Of a DNA stretch of 51,875 nucleotides, positions 2,701 through 18,586 are shown piece after piece (position 1 is the first letter of the stretch; each line of letters opens with the position of its first letter). Origin of the DNA: a virus; the IMG/VR virus record IMGVR_UViG_3300020109_000029, positions 1 to 51,875 of that record, one strand, 5' to 3'. The notes below the pieces were generated by a model that made no database searches, was not told the origin of the DNA, and was given only the letters and a program-made list of their open reading frames with translations. A program made the translations under genes and the position numbers.

Positions 2701-3347
2701 GCTTCACCCCTGAACAGAAGGCGGCGCTCCAGGCACCTTTGAGCCAGGCGCACGTCGCCTCCCGTCAACAGGCGGGCCAGACCCTGTCCTACGTCGAGGC
2801 GTGGCACGTCATTGCCGAGGCCAACCGCATCTTCGGCTTCGACGGCTGGGCGCGCGAGACGATCGACCTGCGCCAGCTTGGCGAGCCGAGGGAGAAAGAC
2901 GGCAAGTTCCGCGTCGGCTATTCGGCCCGTGTCCGCGTGACTGTGACGGCCGGCGACCGTGTTGTGGTGCGCGAGGGGTGTGGCTTCGGCCAGGGCATCG
3001 ACCGCGATCCCGACCAGGCCCACGAAAGCGCACTCAAGGAAGCCGAGAGCGACGCCATGAAGCGCGCGCTGATGACCTTCGGCAATCCCTTCGGCCTGGC
3101 GCTCTACGACAAGAGCAAGGCGAACGTGGCCGAGGTCGGCAATGCCGCCGTGGACTTCGCCATCGGTCAGCTCCGCTGCTGCAAGACCGGCGACGAGTTC
3201 AAGGACTTCTGGGCCAAGAACAAGGATGGCCTGAAAGAGCAACTGACCCCGCGCGAATACGCGACGGTCGTCACGGCCATGCAGGAGGAGGCCAAGCGCT
3301 TCGCTCCGCCGGCCGAAGAACCCACCCCATTCGACAAGGCCGCCTGA
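2697..3347 (+). CDS. Rad52/Rad22-like single-strand annealing protein
   Basis: A 216-residue protein starting at GTG 2697 (GTGA overlap). Residues 18-130 carry the Rad52-fold signature: LSYVEAWHVIAEANRIFGFD, GWARETIDL, a beta hairpin with RVRVTVTAGDRVVVREG, GCGFGQG, then the helix AHESALKEAESDAMKRALMT and FGNPFGLALYD. Proteins of this fold form oligomeric rings on single-stranded DNA and promote annealing, the role RecT or Red-beta plays in other phages. SSB, a coiled-coil protein and NinB follow immediately, so this is the phage recombination module. The C-terminal 70 residues are variable and probably bind partners. Confidence 0.9.
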   Translation: MSFTPEQKAALQAPLSQAHVASRQQAGQTLSYVEAWHVIAEANRIFGFDGWARETIDLRQLGEPREKDGKFRVGYSARVRVTVTAGDRVVVREGCGFGQGIDRDPDQAHESALKEAESDAMKRALMTFGNPFGLALYDKSKANVAEVGNAAVDFAIGQLRCCKTGDEFKDFWAKNKDGLKEQLTPREYATVVTAMQEEAKRFAPPAEEPTPFDKAA

Positions 3348-3348
3348 C

Positions 3349-3768
3349 ATGAAGAATCTGACCATTGCCGGTCGTCTGACCAAAGACGCCACCACCCGCG
3401 ACGCCGGTTCGGATCGCGTCACCGGGTTTTCCGTCGCCGTCGACGACCGCCAGGGCAAGGACAAGTCCACCCTGTTTTTCGACTGCTCGATGTGGGGAAA
3501 GCGCGGCGAGGCGCTGGCTCAATACCTCATCAAGGGTGCGTCGGTGACCGTCTCCGGCGACCTCGGCACGCGGGAGTACGAGGGCAAGACCTACCTGACC
3601 CTCCGCGTGAATGACGTGACGCTCCAGGGCGGGAAACCCACACGGGACGAACACGATCAGCGGCCGGCGGGTGAACGGGGAGGGTCGTCCAGCGGTCAGC
3701 CCGCCGGCGGCTACGACCTGTCGGACGATATCCCGTTCGTGAGGGTGGCGGGAGATTTCGATGTCTGA
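3349..3768 (+). CDS. ssb: Single-stranded DNA-binding protein
   Basis: A 139-residue protein with an N-terminal OB fold (residues 1-103: MKNLTIAGRLTKDA, VTGFSVAVDDR, DCSMWGKRGEALAQYLIKGA, VTVSGDLGTREYEGKTYLTL). A Gly/Ser-rich linker and an acidic end containing DLSDDIPF follow; the DDIPF motif is the partner-binding tip of bacterial SSB, though here nine residues lie after it. It would coat replication and recombination intermediates and recruit host proteins. It starts one base after the annealing-protein stop. Confidence 0.93.
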   Translation: MKNLTIAGRLTKDATTRDAGSDRVTGFSVAVDDRQGKDKSTLFFDCSMWGKRGEALAQYLIKGASVTVSGDLGTREYEGKTYLTLRVNDVTLQGGKPTRDEHDQRPAGERGGSSSGQPAGGYDLSDDIPFVRVAGDFDV

Positions 3769-5754: not shown

Positions 5755-6195
5755 ATGACTAGCCCCCATTCCGGCCAGACGGCCTCCATAGGCGACCACC
5801 AACTTTCTTTCACCAACAGAAGAGGAGCGGAAAGCCACGACCCGCGCGCGAAAGCGTCTGGGTGTGATCAGGGAGGGGGCGTCGTCACGCTTGGCGGCTC
5901 CCCCGCTGTTCAGACCGGCGTGGGCTTCCTTCTGAGGTCCGCCCATTCTGCACGCGGGACCGGCGCGATCCACGGCCACACCTACGAAGTCGTTTGCTGG
6001 TTTCCGGCGGGAGACGACGCTGAAGAGTTGCAGGCGAAGTGCGAACGGTCTTGCGCGGACCTAGACCACGCAATCCTTCCGGAAGAACTGGCCTGGGCTG
6101 AAGCCCTGGTCGCCGAAATCATGCGCCGCACCGGAGCAGAAGACGTCGAGATCAGACGGCCCCTTGAGCGTCTTTACGCGAGGCCGCGCCGATGA
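5755..6195 (+). CDS. QueD-like T-fold protein (6-carboxy-tetrahydropterin synthase family)
   Basis: A 146-residue protein. With start ATG 5755, residues 62-146 match the QueD/PTPS T-fold: SAH (His 64) and HGHTYEV (His 73 and 75) supply the three zinc ligands, LDHAIL (104-109) is the conserved Asp-His, and RRPLERLYA carries the substrate Glu. The catalytic Cys normally found just before HGH is absent (TGAIHGH), so it may not make 6-carboxytetrahydropterin. Residues 1-57 are low-complexity, and GTG 5920 would give a 91-residue protein starting at the fold itself. It overlaps the DpdA-like gene by four bases, pointing to a shared 7-deazaguanine role. Confidence 0.7.
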   Translation: MTSPHSGQTASIGDHQLSFTNRRGAESHDPRAKASGCDQGGGVVTLGGSPAVQTGVGFLLRSAHSARGTGAIHGHTYEVVCWFPAGDDAEELQAKCERSCADLDHAILPEELAWAEALVAEIMRRTGAEDVEIRRPLERLYARPRR

Positions 6196-6966
6196 CCGAC
6201 CTCCTGTTCTATCCCGGCACCCACCAGGTCGGCGACGCCAAGCACTTCGACCGCGTCTGCATCAGCCGTAATCGCCTCGTCGGGCGCAAGAAGCCGGTCG
6301 AGTGCGACGATGTCCTGCTCGACTGCGCCGGGTTCACGACCATCGAGAAGCACGGTGGCTATCCGCACCCCCCGGAAGAGTGGGCGCGCGAGGTGCATCG
6401 CCTGAACTCGAACGGCATCCTCAAAATCACCGTCGTCGTGGCACAGGACTACATGTGCGAGCCCTGGATGCTCGCCAAGACCGGCCTGACGATCGAAGAC
6501 CATCAGCGCCTCACAATCGGCCGCTTCGACGCAGTCATTGCCGAACTGCACCGTCTCTACGATGGGCCGCCGCCCTTCGAGGTCATGCCGGTTCTGCAAG
6601 GCTTTGCGATCAGCGATTACCTTCGCCATATCGAAATGTATGGTGACCGCCTCACCCCCGGCATGTGGGTTGGCGTCGGCTCTGTCTGCAAGCGCCAGGG
6701 CGACCCGGCGATCATCGAGGACTTGCTTCTAGCCATTGCAGGAGTGCGGCCGGACCTCCGGCTGCACGGCTTTCGGTGTGAAGCTGACGGCACTCCGCAG
6801 TCCCATCGTTCGCCGGCTGCTCTACAGCGCGGACAGCATGGCCTGGTCCTTTGCAGCTCGGAAGCAGGGCCGCGACGGCAACGACTGGCGCGAAGCCAAG
6901 GCGTTCGAGGCGCGCGCTCTCGTCCCCAGTCGCGAGCCCGAGCAACTGCGATTGTTCTCGGCATGA
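6192..6966 (+). CDS. dpdA: DpdA-like DNA 7-deazaguanine transglycosylase, read through a +1 frameshift
   Basis: The first 194 codons encode a TGT-like barrel related to DpdA (MTDLLFYPGTHQ, LLDCAGFTTIEKHGGYPHPP, PVLQGFAISDYLRHIEMYG, WVGVGSVCKRQGDP, LRLHGF). DpdA enzymes exchange guanine in DNA for a 7-deazaguanine such as preQ0, protecting phage DNA from restriction. After GGC TTT at 6768-6773 the family sequence continues only in the +1 frame (GVKLTALRSPIVRRLLYSAD, ending EQLRLFSA at 6966), giving 257 residues. Unshifted translation runs to 7016 with an Arg/Ser-rich end. Either a one-base insertion or programmed +1 shifting on TTT CGG is involved. Confidence 0.75.
6771..6777 (+). promoter_or_regulatory. 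Candidate +1 ribosomal frameshift site in the DpdA-like gene
   Basis: The zero-frame codons are TTT CGG, and slipping one base forward gives TTC with GGT next, restoring the conserved HGFGVKLTAL reading. tRNA-Phe (anticodon GAA) pairs better with TTC than TTT, which favours the shift. The arrangement resembles the UUU CGU site of the influenza PA-X +1 shift. No stop codon sits in the A site. A simple sequencing or mutational insertion of one C is the alternative. Confidence 0.45.
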
Positions 6967-7012
6967 TCTCCACCAACAAACAGGTGGCCCCGCAAAGCGG
7001 CGGAGAGGGGCG

Positions 7013-8530
7013 ATGAAACCCAAGCTCCTCGACCTTTTCTCAGGCATCGGCGGCTTCAGCCTGGGCCTTGAGCGCGCAGGCTTCGAAACCGTGGCGTTTT
7101 GCGAGATCGCACCGTCGCCTCGTCACCTTCTGGCGACTCACTGGCCGAACGTCCCCTGCTTTGAAGACATCACGACGCTGACCGCTGAAATGGTTGGGCC
7201 TGTCGACGCAATCTGCGGCGGCTTCCCCTGTCAAGACATTAGCTTCGCCGGGAAGGGGGCGGGTTTGGCCGGCGAGCGCTCCGGCCTCTGGAGAGAATAT
7301 GCACGATTGGTTCGCGAGCTACGACCCCGCTACGTCATCGTGGAAAACGTCGCAGCGCTCCTTGGTCGAGGACTTGGAGACGTTCTCGGAGACCTGGCCT
7401 CGCTCGGGTACGATGCGTGGTGGGATTGCATACCAGCTTCCGCCGTTGGCGCCCCTCACCGCCGCGACCGGCTCTGGATTGTTGCCTACCCCGGAGGCGA
7501 GCAACACGAAGGCTACGGCGATGCGCTCCGGAGGGAGATCGCCGCGGGACTTTCTCGCGCCGCTGCCCTCGTGGCCCACACCGACGGCAATGGACGGCCG
7601 GCGCGGGAACAAGCCCCCGAGACCGTGGGATGCGGGAGTCTATTTGCCGCAAGCGGTAGCGATGTGGCCCACGCCGCGAGCGACAGACGGCTCAAAGGGC
7701 GGTCCAAACCAGAGAGGCAGCAAGGGCGACCTTGCCCTGCCGGCGGCGGTGCATCGCTGGCCTACTCCGACGTCCAGCATGGCGAAGGGGTCGTCTCCGG
7801 CGTCACTGACGAGGAAGGACGGACAGGACCGTTCGAACGATCGGTTGGACCACGCCATGCAGGCCCGCGAGGGCAGTGGTCAGCTGAACCCGACGTGGGT
7901 CGAACTCTTGATGGGTTTTCCCGCTGGCTGGACGAAACCTATGGAGACCCGGAAGCCCATAAGGTAATATTGGCTTATGCCAATGCCTCGGAGGCCGGAC
8001 CCCGAAAAGCACTGCGAGACCTGCGGGACCGCATTCGTGCGGAAGATGACCGGCGGGCGGCTGGAGGACCGGTCAGTGTTTCTCCGTCGGAGGTTCTGTT
8101 CGCTTTCGTGCGCGAACACGCGCGGCGAGCTGAAGAAGGGCTCACATCACTGGAGGGCGCGGCGCCACCGTCTGACGGCGTGCGAAGCCTGCGGGGAACG
8201 AAGGGCGCTGCACGTCCACCACTGCGACCAGGACGAGACGAACAACGAGCCGGCGAACCTTCAGACCCTCTGCAAGTGGTGTCACAACTTCTGGCACGCC
8301 ACGCAGAAGCGGCTTGGATTGCCTATCGCTGGCCGGATGCCCGCGCTTCGCAGCCTTGGGTCCACGGATGGGAAGACGGGGTCGGCCGCGTAGCGACCGC
8401 AGTGCCGGCCCGCGTCGACAAGCTCCACGGGCTGGGAAATGCCGTGGTTCCACTCATCCCGGAAATCCTAGGCAGAGCCATCCTAGCCGCACAGGAATCC
8501 ATCACCACCCCCCAATCGAGAGCAGCCTGA
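7013..8530 (+). CDS. C5-cytosine DNA methyltransferase with an internal HNH insertion
   Basis: A 505-residue protein; ATG 7013 follows GGAGAGGGG at 7002-7010. Visible motifs: I (DLFSGIGGFSLGL, 7-19), IV with catalytic Cys (GFPCQD, 70-75), VI (ENV, 111-113), VIII (RRDRLW, 150-155), and at the far end IX/X (VPARVDKLHGLGNAVVP, ending at about 480). A segment WSAEPDVGRTLDGF near 290 and another HGWEDGVGRVATAVP near 455 belong together in related enzymes but are separated here by about 140 residues, where an HNH gene lies in the +1 frame. The methyl frame stays open throughout. It would modify phage DNA against restriction. Confidence 0.85.
   Translation: MKPKLLDLFSGIGGFSLGLERAGFETVAFCEIAPSPRHLLATHWPNVPCFEDITTLTAEMVGPVDAICGGFPCQDISFAGKGAGLAGERSGLWREYARLVRELRPRYVIVENVAALLGRGLGDVLGDLASLGYDAWWDCIPASAVGAPHRRDRLWIVAYPGGEQHEGYGDALRREIAAGLSRAAALVAHTDGNGRPAREQAPETVGCGSLFAASGSDVAHAASDRRLKGRSKPERQQGRPCPAGGGASLAYSDVQHGEGVVSGVTDEEGRTGPFERSVGPRHAGPRGQWSAEPDVGRTLDGFSRWLDETYGDPEAHKVILAYANASEAGPRKALRDLRDRIRAEDDRRAAGGPVSVSPSEVLFAFVREHARRAEEGLTSLEGAAPPSDGVRSLRGTKGAARPPLRPGRDEQRAGEPSDPLQVVSQLLARHAEAAWIAYRWPDARASQPWVHGWEDGVGRVATAVPARVDKLHGLGNAVVPLIPEILGRAILAAQESITTPQSRAA
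7194..7967 (+). CDS. Overlapping +1-frame protein nested in the methyltransferase gene
   Basis: A 257-codon frame lies wholly inside the methyltransferase gene. It contains SYDPATSSWKTSQRSLVEDL, ETWPRSGTMRGGIAYQLPPL, repeated LPTPEAS/WPTPTAMDG/WPTPRATDG/WPTPTSS units and LNPTWVELLMGFPAGWT. From memory, proteins with this motif set are widespread in phage annotations next to or over cytosine methyltransferases, without known function. ATG 7194 is the first start; ATG 7299 with GGAGAG at 7290-7295 is an attractive alternative giving MHDWFASYD. Because the DNA is GC-rich, long chance frames are common, so the motifs, not the length, are the evidence. Confidence 0.5.
   Translation: MGLSTQSAAASPVKTLASPGRGRVWPASAPASGENMHDWFASYDPATSSWKTSQRSLVEDLETFSETWPRSGTMRGGIAYQLPPLAPLTAATGSGLLPTPEASNTKATAMRSGGRSPRDFLAPLPSWPTPTAMDGRRGNKPPRPWDAGVYLPQAVAMWPTPRATDGSKGGPNQRGSKGDLALPAAVHRWPTPTSSMAKGSSPASLTRKDGQDRSNDRLDHAMQAREGSGQLNPTWVELLMGFPAGWTKPMETRKPIR
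7977..8393 (+). CDS. HNH endonuclease embedded in the methyltransferase gene
   Basis: A 138-residue protein with two zinc sites and a clear HNH core: CETCGTAFVRK and CSLSCAN (residues 13-45), then CEACGERRALHVHHCDQDET, NNEPANLQTLCKWCHNFWH (69-107). The catalytic HH, Asn and final His are all present. It is in the +1 frame of the methyltransferase, nine bases after the stop of the overlapping frame at 7967, and ends inside the region encoding methyltransferase motif IX. It looks like a homing nuclease that landed in the variable region without closing the host frame. Confidence 0.8.
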   Translation: MPMPRRPDPEKHCETCGTAFVRKMTGGRLEDRSVFLRRRFCSLSCANTRGELKKGSHHWRARRHRLTACEACGERRALHVHHCDQDETNNEPANLQTLCKWCHNFWHATQKRLGLPIAGRMPALRSLGSTDGKTGSAA

Positions 8531-16054: not shown

Positions 16055-18586
16055 CTAAAGGGCTCGGGATAGGCGCAGGGCGGCCAGGGAGCGATCCTGG
16101 GGCATGCCTTGGAGGTCTCGGGTCTGGTGGGCGCCGATCATCACGCGGGAGGCCTCGGCGCCCTCCAGGGAGCGATCCCGGGCTTGGCCGGAGAGTTGGC
16201 GAGCGGGGATTGGCTGGAAGGGGCGAACAAAATAGCCAGACGCCGCGCCAACGACCGGGGAGAGACCGGCGAGGGTGGACGCCGTGATCGGAAGTCGGCC
16301 AGCCAGCGACGTTGAGACGGGACCAAGGCTGACTGTCGCGGACGCCGAAACGAACAAGACGCCCGTCGCTGCGCCGGTGAGGTGGCCAAGCTGACCTGAG
16401 GTCCGTCCGCCAGCCTGTAGTGAGCCAGCGCCCGCGCCGGTGGCGTGATCTAGCGTGAAGGACGCGGAGCCGCGAACAAGCAGGCCGCCCGTCGATGCCC
16501 CAATCAGAGAGCCAAGAGTACCGCTGGCCTCTCCGGTCGCCGTTTCTCCGAACGATCCGGAGCCTAGCCCGGTCAGGGGGCCAAGGGGCGCCGAAAGGGT
16601 GGCAGAGATTGGAAGGTGGCCGGAGGCGGAGAGGGTGAGCGGTGACAGGGCCGCGGCGGCGTCGCCGTCTATCGGCAGGTCGCCCTCGGCCATCGTGGTG
16701 ACGAAGCCGAGGGCAATGCTGGCCTGAGCCGCGATGCTGAGCGCGCCCGCGCCGGAACCCGTGAGTATCTCCAGGGTGACGTTTCCGATCCCGGAGACCG
16801 GGAGGGACGCCGCCGATGCCCCGCCAAGGCTTCCAAGCGTCGCGTCGGTCGCTCCGCCGATCTGGAGCGACCCGACGCCGGCAGCGGTTGCCGCCCCGAG
16901 CGCGGCGCTTGCCATCGCCTTGACGGTGAGCGAGCCGGTCCCCGAGGTCGTGGCGACACCCAGCTTCGGGGCGCTCGTGGCCTTGATCTGGAGAGAGCCC
17001 GCCCCCGAGCCTGTTGCTGCCCCGAGGGTGACGCTGGCGGCTCCGGTGATGGCCCCGCCGCTGTCGACGACCTTGAACGCCGCGACCGCCATCGCGTGAC
17101 GAGCAGAGGCCGATGCCGTGACTTGCACTGTCCCCGTCGCGCCGGCGGAAGACCGGATAGCGTCCGCTACGGCGAGGGCCGCGTCCGCACCGGTCGTGGT
17201 CCCGCTGTCCGCCCGCTCTATCCAGGTTCCCGACGTGGGAAGGCTGGTCATGTTGGTGGCGCCGGAAGCGGTCGTAGGATCGGTGGCCGCGTCGAAGGCG
17301 GTGGCGGTGACGTTCCGGGCTCCAAACAGCGCGGCGAAGATCAGCGATCCGGCCGTGGTGGTCGTGACGCCGGCCGTCGTGACGGTCGTGGAGGCGGTCG
17401 GGAGAGTGTTCGAAGATCCCGTGTCGAGACTGATCGTGCCCGGCGCGTCGTAGCGATAGGCCAGCGCCCGTCCTATGCCGACATCGCCGCCCGTGCGGGT
17501 GAAGGTGTAGGACGGGGCGGAGGAGCCCCGGATGCAGTAAGCAATCAGACCCCCACCGATCGATCCGGTGCCGTTGGCCGTCGTGTTTCCACCGGACTGC
17601 TGGGTTGCCGCAAGTTGCCAGCCGCCGGTGGATGGCAAGGCGAACGCGACGTTGGATCGGAAGCTGATCGGGACGACGATCAGGTCGCCCTCTGCCGCGC
17701 CAGAGGGCTCGGTGACGGTGATGTTGCCGCTGGCGACCGTGACAGCCCCGCCGATCAGGGGGGCGGACCAGCCTACGTCCGTGACCGTGACGGCGATCGT
17801 CTGATCGGTCGTGTTGCTCGCGCCGTCGGTCGCCCGGACCGTGACGACGTAGGCGTTGTCGCCGTCCGCATCGGCCGGGCTCTCGTAGTCCCGCGTCCCG
17901 TTGCTGGCCCAGCGGAGTGTAGAGCCGCTGATTTCGAACTGCGCCTGATCCGCACCGCCGATTATCGACCAGGTGACGGCCTCGTTCGCCGTCAGGCTGT
18001 GGGCGAGGGTGGCGTTCTCAGCGACCGAGGCGGTGTTGGCACTCGTGATCGTAGGGGGCGTGACGTCGGGGCCGCCAGCCTCGTAGGTGATCGAAAGCTG
18101 GGCGCAGTTGGTCGTGCTGGTGGAATAGTCCACCCACGCCATGAGACCCGTAGCTCCGGCAGGATCGCCGGCGAAAGCGATTGCATTGCCCGGCGCCCAA
18201 CCTGTCCGGTTGATGATCTCCTGAACCTGGGCGGTGACGTCTATCCGCTGAGTCGCCCCGTCGGCTATTGCGGTTGATGCCGTGGTTTTGGGTGCAGCGC
18301 TCGGGTTGGTAACACTCCAGACCGGTGCGTTATCAGTCGCTACACCCTTAATCGCGCCCCAACTTCCTGCCGTGGAGTTCGCCCCATCCTTCACGAGGTC
18401 GATGTAGGCCTCGCTTATGGTGGAGCCTTGGGGCGGGGCTGAGCCGTCCGTCGGGAAACGCAGCCCTACAAAGTAGCTAAAACCGCTTGCGGTACCGGCC
18501 GCGACGTTGGTCGAGATAATCCCAAAACCGGGAGCAAAAAAGACATCATCCGCCGTATTGGCGATGCCATAGGAGACTGTCGGCAT
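16055..18586 (-). CDS. Large tail fibre/adhesin with cadherin-like domain and 21-residue repeats
   Basis: An 843-residue protein. Residues 1-170 are a beta domain that may attach to the tail. Residues 178-272 look like a cadherin-type Ig domain (VAENATLAHSLTANEAVTWS, TRDYESPADADGDNAYVVTV). Residues 275-515 form another beta region. From about 520 to 795 there are about thirteen repeats of 21-22 residues with the pattern LG-x(3-5)-G-x-G-x-L-x-I, suggesting a solenoid stalk. The C-terminal 50 residues are basic and not repetitive. Likely host-surface binding. Confidence 0.75.
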   Translation of the reverse strand: MPTVSYGIANTADDVFFAPGFGIISTNVAAGTASGFSYFVGLRFPTDGSAPPQGSTISEAYIDLVKDGANSTAGSWGAIKGVATDNAPVWSVTNPSAAPKTTASTAIADGATQRIDVTAQVQEIINRTGWAPGNAIAFAGDPAGATGLMAWVDYSTSTTNCAQLSITYEAGGPDVTPPTITSANTASVAENATLAHSLTANEAVTWSIIGGADQAQFEISGSTLRWASNGTRDYESPADADGDNAYVVTVRATDGASNTTDQTIAVTVTDVGWSAPLIGGAVTVASGNITVTEPSGAAEGDLIVVPISFRSNVAFALPSTGGWQLAATQQSGGNTTANGTGSIGGGLIAYCIRGSSAPSYTFTRTGGDVGIGRALAYRYDAPGTISLDTGSSNTLPTASTTVTTAGVTTTTAGSLIFAALFGARNVTATAFDAATDPTTASGATNMTSLPTSGTWIERADSGTTTGADAALAVADAIRSSAGATGTVQVTASASARHAMAVAAFKVVDSGGAITGAASVTLGAATGSGAGSLQIKATSAPKLGVATTSGTGSLTVKAMASAALGAATAAGVGSLQIGGATDATLGSLGGASAASLPVSGIGNVTLEILTGSGAGALSIAAQASIALGFVTTMAEGDLPIDGDAAAALSPLTLSASGHLPISATLSAPLGPLTGLGSGSFGETATGEASGTLGSLIGASTGGLLVRGSASFTLDHATGAGAGSLQAGGRTSGQLGHLTGAATGVLFVSASATVSLGPVSTSLAGRLPITASTLAGLSPVVGAASGYFVRPFQPIPARQLSGQARDRSLEGAEASRVMIGAHQTRDLQGMPQDRSLAALRLSRAL

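Follow-up and report, generated by a model that had tools for sequence, protein, structure and literature searches.

The DNA analysed here, hereafter the window, comprises the 51,875 bases of a virus record and has genes for phage head, tail, portal, and terminase proteins and for a DnaB-like helicase. As the preliminary description of this DNA had recognised, 1.5 kb of it encode three proteins in two reading frames (Table 1): frame A, the putative large chain of a C5 DNA methyltransferase; frame B, which overlaps A at +1 and encodes its probable small chain; and a complete HNH nuclease, which begins nine bases after the stop codon of B in the same frame and across which frame A stays open. 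Elsewhere in the window, a DpdA-like gene upstream of A (6192-7016, + strand) is frameshifted, through mutation or assembly error, and matches phrog_1279 positions 4-197 in one frame and 194-227 in another from about 6770; an 843-aa ORF near the tail genes (16055-18586, - strand) is without a PHROG match at E 1e-5.

Table 1. Features of the methyltransferase-HNH locus, in window coordinates
Feature	Position	Strand	Details
Frame A, putative C5 methyltransferase large chain (motifs I-VIII and X)	7013..8530	+	505 aa; stop-free across HNH
Frame B (frame A +1), probable small chain	7194..7967	+	257 aa, start uncertain; phrog_1008 'DNA methyltransferase', E 1.4e-36
Left copy of dual-coding segment	7887..7934	+	frame B NPTWVELLMGFPAGWT; frame A PDVGRTLDGFSRWLDE
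Motif IX equivalent in frame B	7896..7934		WVELLMGFPAGWT; upstream of HNH
Insert relative to uninterrupted relatives	7904..8389 (ends approximate)	+	486 nt = 162 codons
Gap from B stop to HNH start	7968..7976	+	nine bases; B TAA 7965-7967, HNH ATG 7977
HNH nuclease ORF (frame A +1)	7977..8393	+	138 aa; stop at 8391-8393; phrog_1271, E 9e-13
Right copy in frame A	8390..8452	+	RVATAVPARVDKLHG then LGNAVVP (motif X, 8432-8452)

The overlapping frames and the nested nuclease gene

Frame A is matched by Pfam PF00145 over residues 4-162 (E 8.8e-40) and by phrog_363 over residues 1-499, the latter using only 270 profile positions (52-321), so that the profile jumps a large stretch of A. In an AF2 model of A, confidence is good over residues 1-190 and about 480-498 and low between them; a scan for relatives of the 276-aa C-terminal part of A found none. 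By the conventional motif names, A holds motifs I-VIII and X. The segment of A that follows the HNH ORF had been labelled motif IX in the preliminary description, a label that must be moved: this segment leads into motif X, and the motif IX equivalent lies in frame B.

B is a PTP-repeat, target-domain-like protein whose C-terminal end forms that equivalent. An hhalign comparison (probability 95, E 3.2e-8) pairs its C-terminus with LSPAFVEWLMGLPAGHVTDVPG, a segment that the single-frame enzymes of other phages have directly ahead of motif X; hence the assignment of a motif IX equivalent to B and of motifs I-VIII and X to A. The PTP repeats are located in B, and we call this part target-domain-like only, the AF2 model of B (mean pLDDT 57) being too poor to confirm a fold. 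That B is a real overlapping gene under synonymous constraint is clear from codon usage among 55 distinct uninterrupted loci, in which same-residue codon identity is mostly 0.35-0.44 along the first 60 residues of frame A, where A alone is encoded, rises to 0.5-0.75 over most of the overlap with B, reaches 0.99 and 0.82 at the dual segment EPNVGRVAHGVPARVD, and falls to 0.47 and then 0.33 past the end of B, a profile that is the signature of a second coded protein.

The zinc cysteines of the window HNH, and likewise its HH, N, and H residues, are intact and are invariant among six relatives. Against PDB sequences it found nothing better than E 0.034. An inverted repeat, ATTGGC-TTAT-GCCAAT, surrounds its start codon (7969-7984) and also occurs near the HNH start of a related locus, L127; an RNA hairpin at this position was considered and rejected, since folding of the region is within the ordinary range (z -1.4 for either sequence).

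Taken together, A and B probably constitute a two-chain C5 methyltransferase, of presumed activity, made from overlapping frames. The likely counterpart is M.EcoHK31I, whose chains are reportedly also encoded in overlapping frames. In that enzyme the large chain carries motifs I-VIII and X and the small chain motif IX (PMC3404938), the same division as between A and B. The placing of the target domain may differ between the two systems, being predicted for the large chain of M.EcoHK31I, whereas the PTP-repeat, target-domain-like part here lies in B; the window in addition has the nested HNH, the passages of PMC3404938 consulted describing none.

Insertion into a dual-coding segment and its duplication

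Scans with B and with the N-terminal part of A each yielded 80 loci. In 77 loci, representing 63 distinct sequences, the NP.WVEWLMG.P of B starts exactly 59 nt before the LGNAVVP (motif X) of frame A, and the intervening DNA is near-invariant; these loci were selected by motif pattern, which constrains the amino-acid level by design and leaves the synonymous level free. The corresponding distance from WVEWLMGFP to LGNAVVP in the window is 545 nt, as opposed to 59 nt in the uninterrupted loci, indicating an in-phase insert of 486 nt. An insertion separating methyltransferase segments had been proposed in the preliminary description and stands, although its size, put there at about 140 residues, is 162 codons; likewise, the HNH had been located correctly, whereas the insert starts near 7904, about 45 nt before the 7950 given. 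The further proposal that the last 20 HNH residues use motif IX DNA fails: sequence that can be aligned to uninterrupted relatives resumes only at about 8384-8390, immediately before the HNH stop codon, leaving an overlap of a few codons at most.

Relatives with and without the insert, which had been suggested as the means of defining its ends, both exist. When the 80 nearest methyltransferase relatives retrieved are compared, the spacing is exactly 59 nt in 50, three carry an HNH (L087, L127, and L162), two have another arrangement, and 25 have no B motif recognisable by the pattern searched; the nearest methyltransferase, L084 (on the same contig as L006), is 90% identical in its N-terminal part and uninterrupted. 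With uninterrupted forms so abundant, the idea that the HNH region is an ordinary part of the methyltransferase, named beforehand as the outcome that would speak against an insertion, was rejected.

The insertion point can be placed at ACGTGGGTCGA^GTGGCTCATGGG, that is, GTCGA^GTGGCT. The codon after WVE specifies Trp in 64 of 65 uninterrupted forms and Leu, Ala, or Lys in the family-1 nested forms that have this motif, with the exception of L185, which keeps Trp, and L189, in which Ser replaces Glu and Trp follows. To the left of the insert, the motif IX of B is retained and followed by a stop; to the right, the RVA.GVP.RVDRL..LGN of frame A is retained, with L127, L174, and L001 additionally retaining GAGTGGCTNATGGG. 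A segment once shared by both frames is thus now present twice, one copy serving each frame. The right copy of the window has drifted, and the right junction of the insert is therefore approximate. Beyond what the preliminary description had noticed, then, B is a real overlapping gene with its own motif IX, and the insert lies within the dual-coding segment, which it duplicates.

A second HNH family (L162, L250, and L019) is found at nearly the same position. The host of the HNH in Staphylococcus phage CUB-EPI_14 is a single-frame enzyme, and the HNH stands just before its motif IX. At the same site, L020 (3589-3810) and L008 (3760-3900) have an extra 157 and 75 nt without an HNH, which could be scars of lost elements; motif X of L020 is in frame B. 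L182 (about 2980-3460) has its HNH elsewhere, downstream of motif VIII in A; here too the flank is doubled, GAPHRRERIWIV occurring to either side of the HNH, and frame B stays open through the nested gene.

Three loci (L001, L033, and L173) carry out-of-phase insertions, their excess over 59 nt (451, 367, and 454, respectively) leaving a remainder of 1, and in them frame B spans the HNH and contains motif X. The closest HNH-less methyltransferase relatives of L001, namely L034 (77%) and L048 (76%), have a motif X-like segment in frame A, which suggests that the out-of-phase insertion made motif X, formerly of the large chain, part of the small one.

Openness of the host frame across the nested family

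Scans based on the HNH, which imposed no methyltransferase selection, placed almost all of its close relatives within C5 methyltransferase genes, and recovered again the three loci (L019/L087, L127, and L162) first met through methyltransferase- or B-based scans. After removal of duplicates there are 38 nested loci, comprising 28 together with L177, L181, and eight genomic loci (L252-L257, L259, and L260). All 38 keep the frame that runs into motif X (in L182, the one that runs into the rest of B) open across the HNH, which in every case is at +1 to this read-through host frame. No host-frame stop occurs within the HNH ORF in 27 of the 28 loci tested, the single stop in L164 falling after motif X, while every one of the 28 has one or more stops in the third frame. 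Free-standing phage HNHs (phrog_1271 and relatives) have the zinc cysteines in common with the window HNH and, unlike it, have stops in the equivalent frame, which is open in 0 of 58; the two open cases among an initial 60 controls, L177 and L181, proved to be contig-truncated nested loci and were reclassified. The genomic locus L258, also free-standing, has 8 stops. An out-of-frame HNH inserted without closing the methyltransferase frame, the central claim of the preliminary description, is therefore supported and recurs in many phages and prophages.

How far such openness could arise by chance depends on whether one locus or the family is considered. When the codons of the window HNH are permuted synonymously, frame A is open in 1.1% of shuffles (P 0.011, mean 3.5 stops), or with P 0.043 with GC3-matched codons, so that openness in the window alone, a 1-4% event, is only modest evidence. 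Own-codon permutation gives P 0.09 for L033, 0.0006 for L127, and less than 2e-4 for several loci, including CUB-EPI_14 (35% GC, 11.1 stops expected). Across the nested family, the pattern is overwhelming. These statistics ignore kinship among the nested loci, whose summed probabilities are thus not independent, and the mean AT content of the controls exceeds that of the nested HNHs. A dead methyltransferase, or one of which only the N-terminal part matters, with an open frame that merely reflects GC-rich DNA, would accord with the modest window value and with the many alternative-frame ORFs present in the window. We regard it as highly improbable given that all 38 nested loci, AT-rich ones included, are open as against 0 of 58 controls, and that frame A, beyond the insert, has a conserved motif X preceded by a conserved lead-in.

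Openness, rather than the sequence read through, appears to be what is selected. In 14 divergent family-1 pairs (HNH identity at most 63%), frame-A similarity inside the HNH gives z values of -1.6 to 2.2, with a mean of about 0, against a codon-permuted, stop-free null; the window-L127 pair was excluded, its flanking DNA also being alike. Comparisons of L174 with L171, L187, and L173 (63-65%) give z 0.3-0.9. The higher values for window-L127 (z 4.4) and for close pairs (3.9-6.3) are as predicted from shared codons, and the positive z of a third group is expected, motif X falling inside the HNH ORF there. A conserved read-through domain was accordingly rejected, divergent-pair similarity being what HNH conservation alone would produce.

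Removal of the insert at the RNA or translation level, by an unrecognised intron or by ribosomal bypass like that of T4 gene 60, is a further conceivable reading, and bypass and homing endonuclease genes can be neighbours. We consider this the least probable reading of all, for only about 69 nt of the insert lie outside the HNH ORF, and removal would not demand an open frame, whereas every locus maintains one. The check for introns and inteins called for in the preliminary description points the same way: no Rfam family matched at E<=1, so that no catalytic intron RNA was detected; a group I intron was rejected on this ground and for want of sufficient sequence outside the HNH, and an HNH intein because the HNH is out of the host frame.

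The distribution of the HNH among methyltransferase relatives is patchy, and the nested arrangement occurs in isolated phages of Komagataeibacter (phiKX1) and Staphylococcus (CUB-EPI_14) as well as in contigs labelled Burkholderiales, Nitratireductor, Tianweitania, Stenotrophomonas, Gemmatimonadaceae, and Spirochaetes. HNH and methyltransferase similarity correlate, albeit partially (Mantel r 0.53, p 0.0018, for n=14 of 27 loci, 13 having been dropped with a methyltransferase match of at most 120 residues or none); L174 and L187, for example, are 63% identical in the HNH and 40% in the methyltransferase. The correlation being positive, part of the history is vertical or co-inherited. Such a correlation, like the near-constant residence of the close HNH family within C5 methyltransferase genes, might be expected of a compact restriction-modification unit in which the HNH is the restriction nuclease, A and B are the protecting methyltransferase, and nesting keeps the two together. 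This alternative seems unlikely to us, as most of the closest methyltransferases are without an HNH and a restriction gene would need no fixed position, whereas one exact site, a duplicated flank, and a second HNH family nearly there fit homing better.

Proposed mobility and translation, and known parallels

The reading that we favour, and hold to be probable, is that a homing-type HNH element, neither intron nor intein, has entered a two-chain C5 methyltransferase gene with overlapping frames at its dual-coding segment. Use by the two frames at once explains why this segment, where uninterrupted, hardly varies, and would make it a good target for cleavage and homing. On insertion, the element would supply its own end for frame B, with motif IX kept, then a stop, and then the HNH in the same frame. 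By avoiding codons that give stops in the underlying frame and by having a length that is a multiple of three, the insert would allow the large chain to be read through the HNH DNA into motif X, at the cost of some 162 extra, probably floppy, residues. That a homing endonuclease gene can interrupt a protein gene and not be spliced out has a reported precedent in Aeromonas phage Aeh1, in which nrdA is said to be split by mobE ('genes in pieces'); the host gene there is reportedly divided into two proteins, whereas in the window the host frame would be read through.

The closest published parallel is provided by the hidden out-of-frame HNHs of actinobacteriophage methylases such as that of ShiLan, for which no splicing was reported and the question of translation was raised (Arsenault, Gosselin, & Gogarten, 2025; PMC11855218). 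The two arrangements share an insert in a phage methylase with an HNH encoded out of frame, a stop-free methylase frame, the failure to find an intron or intein, a patchy distribution, and an insert start that resembles the sequence after the insertion site (PMC11855218). They differ in methylase class, ShiLan gp65 being an N6/N4 methylase (PF01555) and the window enzyme a predicted C5 methyltransferase; in register, the methylase frame being H+1 of the HNH in ShiLan and H+2 in the window; and in the HNHs themselves, which have only the generic motif in common (16 bits). The window element is thus not of the same family, and its arrangement is best viewed as the published kind with a different methylase class and register. 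For an overlapping-frame phage C5 methyltransferase with an HNH, the open-access literature yielded no description beyond PMC11855218, its predecessor PMC9957025, and an announcement, PMC12613952, nor did we find there an account of the C5, two-chain, +1 family, its duplicated segment, or its coupling to B. Hidden HNHs, reported for a few mycobacteriophage methylases, thus also occur in a second class of methylase, with different HNHs, in the opposite register, and over a wide range of hosts.

The genetic code itself may explain the strict register seen here. With the HNH at +1, host-frame stops arise only where a T-ending HNH codon precedes a codon starting with AA, AG, or GA, and such stops can be removed at the wobble base with the HNH residues unchanged; in the other register, ATG before an A-starting codon creates an unavoidable TGA. 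As the ShiLan element uses the opposite register, +1 is a preference and not a law.

How a hidden HNH is translated may find a possible answer in its position behind B. Leaderless initiation has been suggested for the ShiLan kind (PMC11855218), whereas the window HNH starts nine bases after B stops and shares its frame, an arrangement from which translational coupling by termination-reinitiation is probable. Going upstream from the HNH in its own frame, the first stop encountered terminates an ORF of 100 codons or more (B) in 24 of the 38 nested loci; in 22 of these 24 the first start codon follows that stop within 0-12 nt, often as TAAATG or TGAATG, and in two the gap is larger. The stop does not end a long ORF in the other 14 of 38, which include three apparent HNH-B fusions (L162, L250, and L255); for 16 of the 38 loci, then, coupling does not hold or is uncertain. 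Some loci seem to have a ribosome site of their own, as with GGAGGAGAT in L174 and L163.

A broader synthesis, to which we give somewhat less than even credence, would join these features: a family of non-splicing homing endonucleases may persist by overprinting, homing to the dual segment of methyltransferases with overlapping genes and duplicating it, so that the genes are un-overlapped, with wobble positions keeping the host frame stop-free and the HNH read as the next cistron after B; out-of-phase insertion, as in L001, L033, and L173, would re-cut the subunit boundary. On our favoured reading, the locus illustrates that a selfish gene can live inside another gene without splicing, why dual-coding DNA makes a good homing target, and how overlapping genes may be pulled apart.

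Such nested genes can be overlooked in annotation. The deposited record of Komagataeibacter phage phiKX1 shows short hypothetical proteins at the locus (L164, 2998-3516), and that of CUB-EPI_14 one 601-aa methyltransferase (L163, 3001-3480), the nested HNH being annotated as such in neither.
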